Positions 20,162 through 29,695 of a stretch of 38,449 nt of DNA are shown one piece after another (position 1 is the first letter of the stretch; every line of letters starts with the position of its first letter). The stretch covers positions 1 through 38,449 of the forward strand of contig PZKD01000090.1 of NCBI GenBank assembly GCA_003034855.1. The letters run 5' to 3'. A program made the position numbers and the translations under genes. The notes under the pieces were generated by a model that saw only the letters and a list, made by a program, of their open reading frames with translations, did no database searches and was not told where the DNA came from. The stretch comes from an archaeon SCG-AAA382B04. Lineage in GTDB: Archaea; Halobacteriota; Methanonatronarchaeia; Methanonatronarchaeales; Methanonatronarchaeaceae.

Positions 20162-20476
20162 TCAGCAACAAATACTTCCAGAAGCTGGTTCATAAATAAT
20201 GTCTTTGGACCATGCCACATAGGCGCCGTAGTAATGAATTTGCGGGTCGTGAATCCTAACACAGGTCGCAAATTTATCAAAACCCAAATCAACACTCAAA
20301 ACATCTCTGTAGGTTTCAACAAGATCCACTTCCTTCAAAACTGAAAGATGAAATTCAAAACCATAATCCTTCTTAACAATACTCGAATCCTTATTATCGT
20401 ATTCTTCTTCGAGATCAACTAACTTGGATTTGTTATAGTTGAGTATCCTACAAATTATTGTATTTTCAGCCTTCAT
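20162..20476 (-). pseudogene. tnpB: tnpB fragment
   Basis: A 104-codon remnant of a TnpB nuclease. The RuvC-I motif VLSVDLGFDKFATCV survives with its Asp at residue 63. In the intact 435-residue copy downstream the same Asp is residue 232, so about 170 residues are missing before it. The RuvC-II/III motifs and zinc finger are also gone. The start ATG overlaps the stop of the small accessory ORF by 11 bases, as in the intact element. Not expected to be active. Confidence 0.8.
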
Positions 20477-20588
20477 CTTCTATCAGCTCATTCAATTTAT
20501 CTTGGACAAAATTTAATTAGTTGAAATGGTTTTCTTTTACCCCTTCGGTTTGCTTTTCTCTTATTGTGATGTTTTTCCTTTCTATCAA
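20466..20588 (-). pseudogene. broken ribbon-helix-helix-like accessory ORF of the decayed IS
   Basis: Too short for standard ORF calling. From a TTG at 20588 the frame reads RKNITIREKQTEGVKENHFN, an in-frame TAA, then LNFVQDKLNELIEDEG and a stop. It aligns along its length with the 52-residue protein at 27255-27413 (RKSVSIRKNQEKWLQ ... FLQEKLDKLIEKYD). This shows that the two IS elements carried the same accessory gene before one decayed. Confidence 0.7.
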
Positions 20589-26488: not shown

Positions 26489-27121
26489 ATGAATATAGAA
26501 CTAATTAAGATAGGTTTCACTATACCTTTATTTTTTTATGCAACTTATACTGATTACAAAGATAGAAGAGTTTCTAATAAGGTTTGGTTACCTCTAATTG
26601 GGTTAGCTTTGGTTGTGTTCTTTTTTGAGTTCAGTATTAGTTATTTAATCAAACTTTGTTTATCGATTGGTGTTATGTTTCCCTTAGCATATTTATTAAT
26701 GTATTTTGATTTTGGTGGGGCTGATGCTAAATTCTTAATGGTTGTTGCGATATTGTTTCCGGAATATCCTGCAGTTTTTAACCCATTTTATGTTGAAGGA
26801 TGGATTTTTTCGTTTACAGTTTTGTTAAATGCCTTAATTTTGGCTTTAGTGTATCCTTTAACTATTTTCTTAGTAAATCTTAAAAAGAAGAATTTTACTA
26901 ATCCTTTAAAGATGATTATTGCTCTCCCAAAAAAACCTGGGTGTGTTAATGAAGATGATAAGGTTATTGGTGATAAAATTTTTCTTGGTAAGCAGGTTGA
27001 GGATGTTAAAGAGAAGGAGAAGGTGTGGGTTAGTCCTAAGATACCTTTTATAATTCCTTTAGTTGCTGGTTATTTTGTTTCATTGGTTTATGGAGATATC
27101 TGGTTGTCTTTGATTCTTTAG
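26489..27121 (+). CDS. archaeal prepilin/prearchaellin peptidase (A24 family)
   Basis: A 210-residue membrane aspartic peptidase with about six helices. The two catalytic aspartates are visible: Asp in YTDYKDRRVSNKVW near residue 22 and Asp in FGGADAKF (the GxGD-like motif, here GGAD) near residue 76. It cleaves class III signal peptides of archaellins and pilins. No pilin or archaellin gene is in the window. It follows a KaiC-like pseudo-ATPase by four bases. The IS605 element begins shortly after its stop codon. Confidence 0.88.
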   Translation: MNIELIKIGFTIPLFFYATYTDYKDRRVSNKVWLPLIGLALVVFFFEFSISYLIKLCLSIGVMFPLAYLLMYFDFGGADAKFLMVVAILFPEYPAVFNPFYVEGWIFSFTVLLNALILALVYPLTIFLVNLKKKNFTNPLKMIIALPKKPGCVNEDDKVIGDKIFLGKQVEDVKEKEKVWVSPKIPFIIPLVAGYFVSLVYGDIWLSLIL

Positions 27122-27254
27122 ATGAAAAATTTTTAGTATATGATGATATGAATGCTACTGAGCCGCAAACCCATCTCCTTTAGGGGATAGGTAAGGCGCC
27201 ATATCTTTTTTTAAGATTTAGGAAAACTATTTAAGTAAGCGTATACATACATAA

Positions 27255-27413
27255 ATGTGTATGGGTGAAGAAGAGAAAAAGGAGAATGGTAAGGTTAGGA
27301 AGAGTGTGAGTATAAGGAAAAACCAAGAAAAGTGGCTACAGAAACATCCTGGAATAAATCTATCTGGTTTCTTACAAGAAAAACTAGATAAACTAATAGA
27401 AAAATATGACTAA
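27255..27413 (+). CDS. ribbon-helix-helix-like accessory protein of the IS
   Basis: A 52-residue ORF (ATG at 27255, alternative ATG at 27261) whose stop overlaps the tnpB start by eight bases. It has a strand-like basic start, KVRKSVSIRKNQEKWLQ, then two predicted helices with GINLSGFLQEKLDKLIEKY, the shape of a ribbon-helix-helix DNA-binding protein. A decayed homolog stands in the same position ahead of the tnpB fragment at 20.5 kb, so it belongs to the element. Short overlapping inverted repeats (CATAC/GTATG at 27246-27263 and ACAT/ATGT at 27249-27258) cover its start codon and could be its own operator. Role unproven. Confidence 0.65.
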   Translation: MCMGEEEKKENGKVRKSVSIRKNQEKWLQKHPGINLSGFLQEKLDKLIEKYD

Positions 27414-28713
27414 ACAAAAACAAAAAGAGAAAAAAGAAATCAAGATAGCGTATCAAGTACCCGTTTCCTCTAGAATCACTAGGCGAAAAAAGACGATCCT
27501 AGAAGACATAATCAATAGGTTTCCAAAGATGGTGCAATGGCTTCTAACAATCTACTACAAAGAAGACATGAGCTTTTCTGAGAAATCAATCACTCATAGT
27601 CGAAAGCTGGTGAAGGAACTTGCCTATCCAACCAAGAGCCATGGCACGCCATATAATTGTAAGAGAGCTGTTTATGGACATCATAGCCATTTCTACGACA
27701 CCGCCATCACGGAGTCTATACAAAAATGGAGTAGCTTCAGCACATGGAAGGAAAAAAGGAAGAAAGCGGGAAAAGAAACAGGAAAACAATTCCCAGACAT
27801 CGAGAGCTACGCTCCCTTGTTCGACTCCACCATGTTCTCTCTAGACCTGGAAAATGAATGGGTGATACTCCACACCGAGAGGGGCAAAGAAAACATCTAC
27901 ATACCCATTACGGTTCCAAACAAAAAAAGATACAAGAACCTCGAGCAAGAAAAAATTAAATCCCTTAGGTTAAAGAGAAACAAAAACGATGAACTAGTTT
28001 TTATATTTAATCAAACTGTTATGTGTTCATCTTTTTCTCCATCTTCATCTTCTTCTCCCGAGGGTGATAACCCATCTCCACTGGCTTTGGTGGGGATGGA
28101 CCTTGGGGAGCGTTTCTTAGCGTCGTCCGTGACGATAACGCCAAGGAATCAACTCTCCAAGATAGAGATACAGAGGGTTAGATTCCACGACTCCTCCGAG
28201 TTACGAGAAACAAATAGAAAGGAAATGGAGATTAGGAAGAACCTACAGAATAAGGGACTGGGTTCAGAGATACCAAAGATGAGTTGGAGTTATCAAAACA
28301 AGAAACAAGAACGAGTGAGAGAAATCGTAGACGAAGAAACCAAATGGATACAAAAACTAATAGAGAACAATAGAGAAGTCTATGTCTTTGTTGGGGATCT
28401 CTCCACACCAACACCACCTAATAGGGGTTCGTTGTCTAGACGACTAAACTCCTTCCCCTATAGAGAACTAAAGAACCAGTTAAAGCATCGGTTGAAGAGA
28501 GAAGGAGCCCACGTCCACTTAGTTAACGAATACAACACATCAAAGACTTGCCCAAGCTGTGGTTCCACGGACACGGACAGAGTCAACCAAGCACGGTTCA
28601 AGTGCCTAAGCTGTGGCTACAGAGCTAATGCCGACTACGTTGGTGCATGGAACATTGTCGGGAGAGGAATCAGCCAACTCAGTATACCTGAGTTGGAGGG
28701 GGCAGTACCCTAA
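27406..28713 (+). CDS. tnpB: TnpB RNA-guided nuclease with relocated RuvC glutamate
   Basis: A 435-residue TnpB. RuvC-I: Asp232 in VGMDLGERFLASSV. At the usual RuvC-II Glu position the sequence is VFVGDLS, with Gly330 instead of Glu. Exactly 45 residues later Glu375 stands in LVNEYNTSKTCPSCG. RuvC-III: Asp410 in RANADYVGAWNIVGRG. The zinc finger has Cys382, Cys385, Cys400 and Cys403. A relocated catalytic glutamate of this kind has been described for some TnpB and Fanzor lineages, so the enzyme may well be active. A Ser-rich insertion (about 208-217) precedes RuvC-I. TnpB cuts DNA under guidance of the omega RNA from the element's right end. Confidence 0.9.
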   Translation: MTKQKQKEKKEIKIAYQVPVSSRITRRKKTILEDIINRFPKMVQWLLTIYYKEDMSFSEKSITHSRKLVKELAYPTKSHGTPYNCKRAVYGHHSHFYDTAITESIQKWSSFSTWKEKRKKAGKETGKQFPDIESYAPLFDSTMFSLDLENEWVILHTERGKENIYIPITVPNKKRYKNLEQEKIKSLRLKRNKNDELVFIFNQTVMCSSFSPSSSSSPEGDNPSPLALVGMDLGERFLASSVTITPRNQLSKIEIQRVRFHDSSELRETNRKEMEIRKNLQNKGLGSEIPKMSWSYQNKKQERVREIVDEETKWIQKLIENNREVYVFVGDLSTPTPPNRGSLSRRLNSFPYRELKNQLKHRLKREGAHVHLVNEYNTSKTCPSCGSTDTDRVNQARFKCLSCGYRANADYVGAWNIVGRGISQLSIPELEGAVP

Positions 28714-28832
28714 ATTGACAGGGTGAAGTGACCCCGCCCAGAGGGGTGCCCAAGAGGGCGTACAAAACCCTAACCTAACCACATCCCATTATTTGGGAAG
28801 CTCGTCCCTTTTTAAGGGACGGGAGGAGGTCA
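28714..28832 (+). ncRNA. putative omega-RNA scaffold / IS right end
   Basis: After the tnpB stop the sequence is GC-rich and foldable: CCCC-GCCCAGA-GGGG near 28733-28747, then a CCC/GGG step, then the terminal hairpin at 28803-28821. In IS605-type elements the guide RNA scaffold spans the 3' end of tnpB and this right end, with the guide lying just past the element border, here in the 5' leader of nfo. The RNA boundaries cannot be set from sequence alone. Confidence 0.45.
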
Positions 28833-28855
28833 CAATAAAAAGTAGTTGGTTATTA

Positions 28856-29695
28856 ATGCTTAAGGTAGGAGTTCATGTTTCAATCTCGGGAGATCTTTTT
28901 AGAGCTATTGATAGAGAAAGAGAAATTGGTGGGAACTGTGGTCAGATATTTAGTCATTCTCCACGTGGTTGGAGTTTTACTTTTCCTAGTAATGAAGAAG
29001 CTAAAAATTTTCGTCGAAAATATAGAAACAAAGATGTCAATCCTTTTGTGATACATGAAGCGTATTTACCTAACTTAGCTACTCCAAAAGATGAGTTGTA
29101 CAAAAAGTCACTTAAAGCAACTAAAAAAGAAGTTGAAGTTGCCAAAAAGCTAGATATAAGGTACATCAATATACATCCTGGCACACATACTGGCTTAGGA
29201 GAATCTAAAGGATTAAAGAAAATAATCAGATCATTGAACAAATTAGAGACTGGTGATGGAGTAATTATTTTATTAGAAACAACTTCTGGAAGTGGAACAA
29301 TGTTGGGTTATTCGTTTGAACAAATTTCTAAAATCCTTAATGAAACTACTATTAATACGGGTGTCACCCTGGATACTTGCCACAGTTTTGCTGCTGGATA
29401 TGATTTATCTTCGAAAAAGGCTGTTAATGAAACGTTGGATGAATTTGATTCAACTGTAGGGCTAGATAACCTAGAATTAATTCATTTGAATGACTCTAAA
29501 CATGGGCTTGGGTCTAAAAAAGATAGACATGAACATATAGGTTTAGGCAAAATTGGTGAAGAGGGAATGAAGAGTATAATTAACAATGAAAGATTGAGGG
29601 ATTTACCTTTTGTATTAGAAACTCCTGAAAATTCTAAAAGAGGCGATAAAGAAAATATCCAAAAAGTTAAAGAATTTAGAGAAAACTACAATTAG
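28856..29695 (+). CDS. nfo: endonuclease IV (AP endonuclease)
   Basis: A 279-residue endonuclease IV, the Zn-dependent TIM-barrel enzyme that cuts 5' to abasic sites in base-excision repair. The metal ligands and motifs are present: HVSISGDLF, VIHEAYLPNLATP, INIHPGTHTG, ILLETTSGSGTMLGY, TLDTCHSFAAGYDL, LIHLNDSKHGLGSKKDRHEHIGLGKIG. The ORF extends upstream to 28793, but that part is the IS right end; the ATG at 28856 gives the family start MLKVGVHVSISG. Only 23 bases lie between the IS end and this ATG, so the original promoter must be displaced. The 3' end overlaps the opposing KaiC-like gene by four bases. Confidence 0.95.
   Translation: MLKVGVHVSISGDLFRAIDREREIGGNCGQIFSHSPRGWSFTFPSNEEAKNFRRKYRNKDVNPFVIHEAYLPNLATPKDELYKKSLKATKKEVEVAKKLDIRYINIHPGTHTGLGESKGLKKIIRSLNKLETGDGVIILLETTSGSGTMLGYSFEQISKILNETTINTGVTLDTCHSFAAGYDLSSKKAVNETLDEFDSTVGLDNLELIHLNDSKHGLGSKKDRHEHIGLGKIGEEGMKSIINNERLRDLPFVLETPENSKRGDKENIQKVKEFRENYN

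Follow-up and report, generated by a model that had tools for sequence, protein, structure and literature searches.

A small ribbon-helix-helix-like gene before archaeal tnpB, probably an autorepressor, with an evolvable operator code

Many of the relatives of a short open reading frame (ORF) found upstream of tnpB in the archaeon SCG-AAA382B04 also stand directly before tnpB, and together they make up a conserved module that is a real part of archaeal TnpB elements, has an operator code capable of evolving and probably represses itself. The ORF lies in a stretch of 38,449 nucleotides that was analysed as a whole and is called the window below. We consider it likely that it encodes a minimal ribbon-helix-helix (RHH) protein, with a core of about 39 residues, that represses its own promoter and hence tnpB on the same message. 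In the proposed mechanism, RHH dimers would lie side by side on tandem 9-bp boxes from the TATA box to the start codon, and the bound dimers would block transcription of the operon formed by the small gene and tnpB. TnpB would be made by translational coupling from the bicistronic message, and tnpB would be repressed with the small gene because both are translated from the same message. A resident element would then keep the nuclease at a low level, and an element entering a repressor-free cell would give a burst. The fold, the DNA binding, the repression, the translational coupling and the purpose of the module are what we infer from the comparisons below. Autorepression by promoter occlusion, with cooperative binding of several sites, is described for RHH proteins of archaeal viruses in the accessible portion of PMC5569661.

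The small gene, its tnpB and their relatives

The window small gene (27,255-27,413, plus strand) is an ORF of 52 codons from the ATG at 27,255, and a second in-frame ATG at 27,261 would give 50 codons. The latter is probably the true start, because its spacing to a TATA-like element ATTTAA (27,229-27,234, plus strand; -32 to -27 from ATG 27,261) agrees with that of 49 haloarchaeal leaders, in which a T-rich peak falls at -29/-28. The small protein matched the family profile, which includes the window protein, with an E value of 2.1e-21, and was 38-55% identical to 29 relatives. Its gene overlaps by 8 nt a tnpB (27,406-28,713, plus strand) encoding a 435-residue protein of the RNA-guided nuclease family, with scores above the cut-offs of PF07282 (70.7 bits, cut-off 26.3) and TIGR01766 (36 bits, cut-off 32) and under that of NF040570 (88.5 bits, cut-off 100). 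No tnpA was seen by inspection among the listed ORFs around the element, and an Rfam scan of 26,900-29,000 gave no match at gathering strength. With a TnpB that has the TNB RuvC/zinc-finger domain and without tnpA, the element reads as an IS200/IS605 element of the IS1341 type. IS1341-type elements carry tnpB without tnpA, as do the window element and its relatives; their expansion in haloarchaea is described in PMC3119063, the accessible part of which does not mention a small repressor gene upstream.

A relict of the same small gene lies at 20,466-20,579 on the minus strand. It contains an in-frame TAA (20,517-20,519) and has no start codon at the expected place. A relict tnpB follows (20,162-20,476, minus strand), an ORF of 104 codons with a weak match to NF040570 (E value of 0.0059), and its start at 20,476 is overlapped by the relict small gene, as in the HMET1 relative L064. 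The earlier note had described an ORF overlapping the tnpB start in both elements. This holds for the window element, and not for the relict, whose frame is interrupted and startless. The similarity it had seen between the two copies stands: it is beyond chance by the family profile (E value of 1.1e-8), but not by a single pairwise search of the genome (0.13).

A profile built from four proteins of the same genome, three encoded before tnpB and one not, detected seven distinct places in that genome at an E value of 0.01 or less. Four of these precede tnpB (the window gene, the relict, C100 and C67), and three have no TnpB match nearby (C56:39295, C56:318 and C56:39007). The C100 TnpB is 74-75% identical to the window TnpB and the small proteins are only 28% identical, so the small gene appears either to evolve faster than tnpB or to have been exchanged. 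The sister genome, Candidatus Methanohalarchaeum thermophilum HMET1, contained 16 distinct places at the same threshold, 15 of them directly before an intact or decayed tnpB; the remaining one was 1278026. This place and C56:39295 belong to a related RHH-like family with the motif WAK.YG.N.S, without tnpB, which is possibly a regulator of the host or of another mobile element. Relatives away from tnpB also occurred in G037 (two), G002, G024 and G007, near which TnpB was sought with own-genome and HMET1 queries only, and a profile match was obtained at G033:1138688 (E value of 0.005). In G037, L130:848-973 is an intact family gene with no recognisable tnpB behind it.

We scanned 84,980 genomes with a 12-sequence alignment as the query and obtained 162 encoded relatives, of which the best 80 were analysed. 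By title, these 80 were nearly all haloarchaeal, with three from HMET1 and one from a contig of a bacterial metagenome-assembled genome (MAG). All of the best 80 had tnpB behind the small gene: 78 were recognised among same-strand open frames by a profile made from the TnpBs of two Methanonatronarchaeia genomes, and two starts of tnpB were recognised by eye (L185, with most of the gene missing, and L197, near the contig end). The tnpB frame begins within 120 nt of the small-gene stop or overlaps it in 73 loci and is more distant in five (L154, L167, L176, L183 and L220). The usual junction is a stop codon followed directly by ATG with no gap, and the two codons abut or overlap in most loci. 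The counts in HMET1 and in the best 80 of the 162 bear out the idea that the gene recurs upstream of archaeal tnpB genes. An ORF arisen by chance, or an element end of common non-coding ancestry, might explain why the gene is short and its relict copy broken, but 162 encoded relatives were found, the best 80 all precede tnpB, and dN/dS is low (see below). The genome survey refuted the chance-ORF reading, and we give this explanation practically no weight.

The survey exposes a mostly unannotated family of genes of about 40 residues before archaeal tnpB. Among the 25 best matches in a plasmid collection, whose gene table is incomplete, 17 had no listed gene, seven were annotated as hypothetical and one was in an unannotated record. 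We found no literature report of the pair of small gene and tnpB in a search that most subscription papers lay outside, and the pair is not described in the accessible portions of PMC8303175, PMC8987985, PMC13092281, PMC12558985, PMC10134880, PMC5569661, PMC3325190, PMC11870625 and PMC6678401. One pair of haloarchaeal type (L213) is located on a 3.3-kb contig of a Syntrophomonadaceae MAG, a placement that is probably a binning error.

Around its second RuvC motif (28,372-28,410) the window TnpB reads VFVGDLS, and several HMET1 TnpBs likewise read GDL there. In many TnpBs, the residue before DL at this motif is E, the catalytic glutamate. The window TnpB may be of a type with a relocated catalytic residue, or may be inactive.

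Constraint on the small protein and its predicted fold

The family has a core of 39 residues with the strand motif R-K-X-I-Y-I-R. It is under strong purifying selection, with a median dN/dS of 0.09 from 49 non-redundant haloarchaeal genes (944 of 1,176 pairs were usable, the others being outside the usable range). This selection, together with the homologs before other tnpB genes, bears out the earlier proposal of a maintained accessory gene. The abutting or overlapping codons at most junctions would also suit a leader ORF, in which translation alone matters by delivering ribosomes to the tnpB start and the protein is functionless. The constraint on the amino acids and the residue-specific coupling to the leader DNA described below argue against such a leader, which we regard as very unlikely.

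AlphaFold monomers of the window protein (pLDDT 65.7) and of L141 (pLDDT 74.3) both had an extended N-terminus followed by two helices, H22-30 and H36-51 in the former and H8-18 and H23-38 in the latter. No strand was assigned in these models, and a lone monomer may not show one. Foldseek returned a best E value of 2.0 for one model and no match for the other, VIA-align on the models found nothing to compare, and PDB sequence searches gave unrelated matches only; for a chain of 39 residues, these structure searches count as uninformative. The most frequent Pfam match was CcdA, an RHH antitoxin, in 15 of 30 and 7 of 12 members (best E value of 0.002), and none of these matches was above the cut-off (best 18.9 bits, cut-off 22.4). 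No significant match to any named family was obtained. The core ends with helix 2, with no C-terminal toxin-binding tail. Since neither a named family nor a structure was matched, the membership in the RHH proteins is predicted from the layout of the chain together with the operator code.

The layout resembles that of the CopG/MetJ/Arc repressors, such as CopG of pMV158, in size and in having an extended stretch followed by two helices, and CopG shares the regulator-first order of the operon. Unlike these repressors, the window family lies upstream of a gene for an RNA-guided nuclease, within a transposable element; it also has several operator classes and matches no named family significantly. 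The DNA-reading strand of CopG is R-x-T-x-T and its TGCA boxes are spaced by 9 bp, like the Thr/Thr class described below. The presence of TGCA in the CopG operator is documented in the accessible portion of PMC6678401. SvtR, AvtR and F55, RHH proteins of archaeal viruses, likewise act as repressors at their own promoters, in the case of F55 by way of tandem repeats that overlap the transcription start site and BRE (according to the available part of PMC5569661); these viral regulators differ from the window family in being viral and in having other operators.

Leader repeats and their covariation with the strand residues

Leaders were taken from 76 of 77 haloarchaeal loci tried, 49 of them non-redundant; the set omits L155, which lacks a start codon where one was expected, and L141, L159 and L169 from HMET1. 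In the 49 leaders, the 36 nt preceding the start codon showed autocorrelation at lag 9 (z of 11.9) and lag 18 (z of 6.8), and tandem 9-bp boxes fall in the interval from TATA box to start codon. These z-scores are inflated because the elements share ancestry, and a z-score alone is weak proof, as a control region upstream, which inherited an 8-bp repeat of its own, reaches a z of 11.5 at lag 8. Because the elements are related, we tested the boxes by dealing them among elements, and none of 5,000 deals gave boxes as alike as those observed within single elements. Separated by the class of strand residues, the observed likeness was reached in 0 of 5,000 deals for Thr/Thr, 8 for Thr/Ser and 55 for Asn/Thr, which is marginal, and in 1,387 for Asn/Ser, which fails. 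The leaders of 13 Methanonatronarchaeia genes, a set that omits the near copies L056 and L123 and uses one of the two starts of the window gene, had a z of 2.6 at lag 9, equal to that at lag 21, and the evidence for the 9-bp rule outside haloarchaea is weak.

By analogy with the haloarchaeal operators, the candidate operator of the window element extends from the TATA-like element to the start codon (27,234-27,263, plus strand), a position predicted by homology. The window leader has no significant 9-bp repeat, and by eye it contains TGTG and not TGCA. Inverted repeats over the start codon, to which the earlier note had drawn attention, are indeed present inside this candidate operator (CATACA at 27,246-27,251 and TGTATG at 27,258-27,263). 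They are within chance for such an AT-rich stretch (p of 0.18), and the repeat alone was rejected as evidence for an operator.

The identity of the haloarchaeal box followed the residue at strand position 0. TGCA was found in the last 30 nt of the leader in 35 of 40 loci with Thr at this position and in none of 36 with Asn (28 of 32 and 0 of 17 in non-redundant leaders), compared to 9 of 40 and 2 of 36 in the control stretch. TGTG or CACA discriminated poorly, with 10 of 40 Thr leaders and 32 of 36 Asn leaders. The best predictors of the operator among the 14 protein columns that could be tested were positions 0 and 2 (partial r of 0.30 and 0.285, respectively), and position 5 came third (0.25). 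Position 0 was unrelated to the control stretch, with which columns 17, 5 and, weakly, 2 were correlated.

The relationship of the TnpBs does not account for this pattern. Pairs with TnpBs more than 70% identical and different strand classes shared operator words at 0.083, no more than other pairs, and pairs with TnpBs less than 50% identical and the same strand class shared more (0.199), where identities are ungapped over the N-terminal 110 residues. On a FastTree tree of the TnpBs, which were usable in 69 of the 76 loci, the Thr/Asn state changes 15 times. Seven independent pairs could be drawn across supported branches; TGCA followed the residue in 6.2 of them on average and went the opposite way in none (median p of 0.03), and TGTG/CACA went the expected way in 3.9 and against it in none, which is not significant (median p of 0.125). 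A sample selected with PF07282 gave 10 leaders, three of which share identical TnpB rows with the first set, and TGCA was present in 5 of 5 Thr leaders and absent from 5 of 5 Asn leaders. TGTG/CACA occurred in 4 of 5 and 5 of 5, respectively, and did not discriminate. In Methanonatronarchaeia, by eye, TGCA occurred in one of three Thr leaders (C100, not L052 or L129) and in neither of two near-identical Asn leaders. As these leaders fit poorly, the code is claimed for haloarchaea only.

In haloarchaea, the box sequence covaries with two alternating strand residues and does not follow TnpB ancestry. We conclude that the predicted repressor and its operator have apparently been exchanged as a unit. 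In RHH dimers, it is a two-stranded sheet that reads the major groove (available portions of PMC5569661 and PMC3325190), and AmrZ reads DNA by residues i, i+2 and i+4 (same portion of PMC3325190). The suggestion of the earlier note that the protein might be a repressor of tnpB is supported, in that the haloarchaeal 9-bp boxes track the predicted DNA-reading residues.

The same data bear on an antitoxin-like partnership, in which the small protein would bind TnpB and hold the nuclease inactive, with operator binding secondary. CcdA as the most frequent sub-threshold Pfam match and the gene order of small protein followed by nuclease are in its favor. The bare core of 39 residues, however, has no tail for binding a partner, and the same strand class occurs with TnpBs less than 50% identical, while TnpBs more than 70% identical occur with different classes. 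Furthermore, one relative precedes an HNH nuclease instead of TnpB. We judge this partnership improbable, although it is the strongest of the competing explanations, and prefer a repressor acting on the shared promoter.

Other genes before tnpB and possible roles of the module

Prevalence was estimated from PF07282-selected loci, one haloarchaeal family, plus 20 further loci, with TnpBs of at least 300 residues. Upstream of 45 haloarchaeal TnpBs, we found the RHH-like family in 10, a DUF2080-like gene in 9, TnpA in 1 and none of these in 25. The corresponding numbers for 22 TnpBs of other Halobacteriota were 0, 1, 3 and 18, and 23 HMET1 TnpBs had the RHH-like family in 1, DUF7557 in 4, TnpA in 6 and none in 12, the remaining HMET1 pairs being shorter, decayed TnpB frames outside this count. 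The upstream small gene is dispensable for TnpB elements, because 25 of the 45 haloarchaeal TnpBs lack all four profiled genes. From these counts and the TnpB tree, the RHH-like family appears frequent within a single TnpB clade and absent from most of the other clades in the sample.

HMET1 has 89 TnpB places, fragments included, of which 57 loci entered the upstream survey; those omitted were mostly short frames. Either TnpA or the small gene often precedes tnpB there. The slot is also filled by a protein matching DUF7557 (E value of 1.6e-10), a family of unknown function in Pfam, which in 9 of its 13 HMET1 places (including L048, L057 and L059) is followed some 1 kb downstream by a TNB match on the same strand, and in L065 by one ParD-like protein below the cut-off. 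L009, in the genome of the window, has a different small ORF in the slot, RHH-like to the eye and without a family match, although the TnpB of L009 shares 83% identity with the TnpB of L064, where the small gene is of the window type. A TnpA at L064 was rejected as a part of the element, since it is a separate remnant upstream, and the L064 row was relabelled by hand for the TnpB tree. The TnpB of L299 is nested in the RHH-bearing clade; upstream of it lies a TnpA-like ORF, and the profile detects no small gene.

DUF2080-like genes occupy the slot in L257, L261, L264, L236, L283, L285-L288 and L295. DUF2080 is listed in Pfam as a putative transposon-encoded protein, and the slot proteins scored 20.8 and 21.2 bits against it (cut-off 21.5). 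They resemble the RHH-like family in abutting tnpB in the same slot and clade, and the two kinds of gene alternate on the TnpB tree. In contrast, their sequence is unrelated to that of the RHH-like family, with no DUF2080 match in the window protein or the 29 other members scanned, and their leaders as a set show no 9-bp period (z of -1.9 for 7 of the 10 leaders, three being missed by the extraction pattern).

A profile of three HMET1 TnpAs found no TnpA-like ORF in the best 80 loci with flanks of up to 3 kb. The same profile gave 16 matches in the HMET1 loci (counting the three TnpAs it was built from), one in the haloarchaeal sample and three in the sample of other Halobacteriota. A co-factor of transposition that binds the element ends and replaces TnpA in TnpA-less elements would agree with this absence and with the frequent occurrence in HMET1 of one or the other gene before tnpB. 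On the other hand, the 9-bp boxes sit at the promoter and start codon and not at the element ends, and in L299, which belongs to the small-gene clade, a TnpA-like ORF takes the place of the small gene. We also know of no RHH protein that acts as a nuclease, which counts against this role. A co-factor seems to us slightly less probable still than an antitoxin-like partner, and repression of the shared message remains our preferred reading.

TnpB, which is regarded as ancestral to Cas12, can serve its element as a gene drive (accessible portion of PMC11870625). An autorepressor is a possible restraint on such gene-drive-like nucleases, of which our literature search gave no report, and might keep the dose of TnpB tolerable where a host carries dozens of copies. 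We tentatively propose, while thinking it rather less than an even chance, that haloarchaeal TnpB elements form immunity groups like those of temperate phages, in which exchange of the cassette frees the nuclease expression of a newcomer. If so, a resident RHH repressor would silence incoming copies of the same 9-bp operator class, and the cassette would be portable between selfish nucleases, as it is also joined to a viral HNH gene. A coupled repressor with readable operator classes would then predict which resident element silences which newcomer.

In three viral contigs (L221-L223), identical in sequence here, a family member shares one base with the beginning of an HNH endonuclease gene (L222:3001-3689 for the pair, also in L221 and L223). 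The endonuclease has 189 residues and matched PF13391 at 21.1 bits (cut-off 21). No TnpB match was found in four viral loci. The leader of L221-L223 has a 9-bp period (p of 0.006), and the pair is possibly a repressor-controlled homing endonuclease. Distant relatives of this HNH protein occurred in seven halovirus records, and in the one halovirus inspected, the gene directly before the HNH gene encodes a hypothetical protein of about 147 codons.
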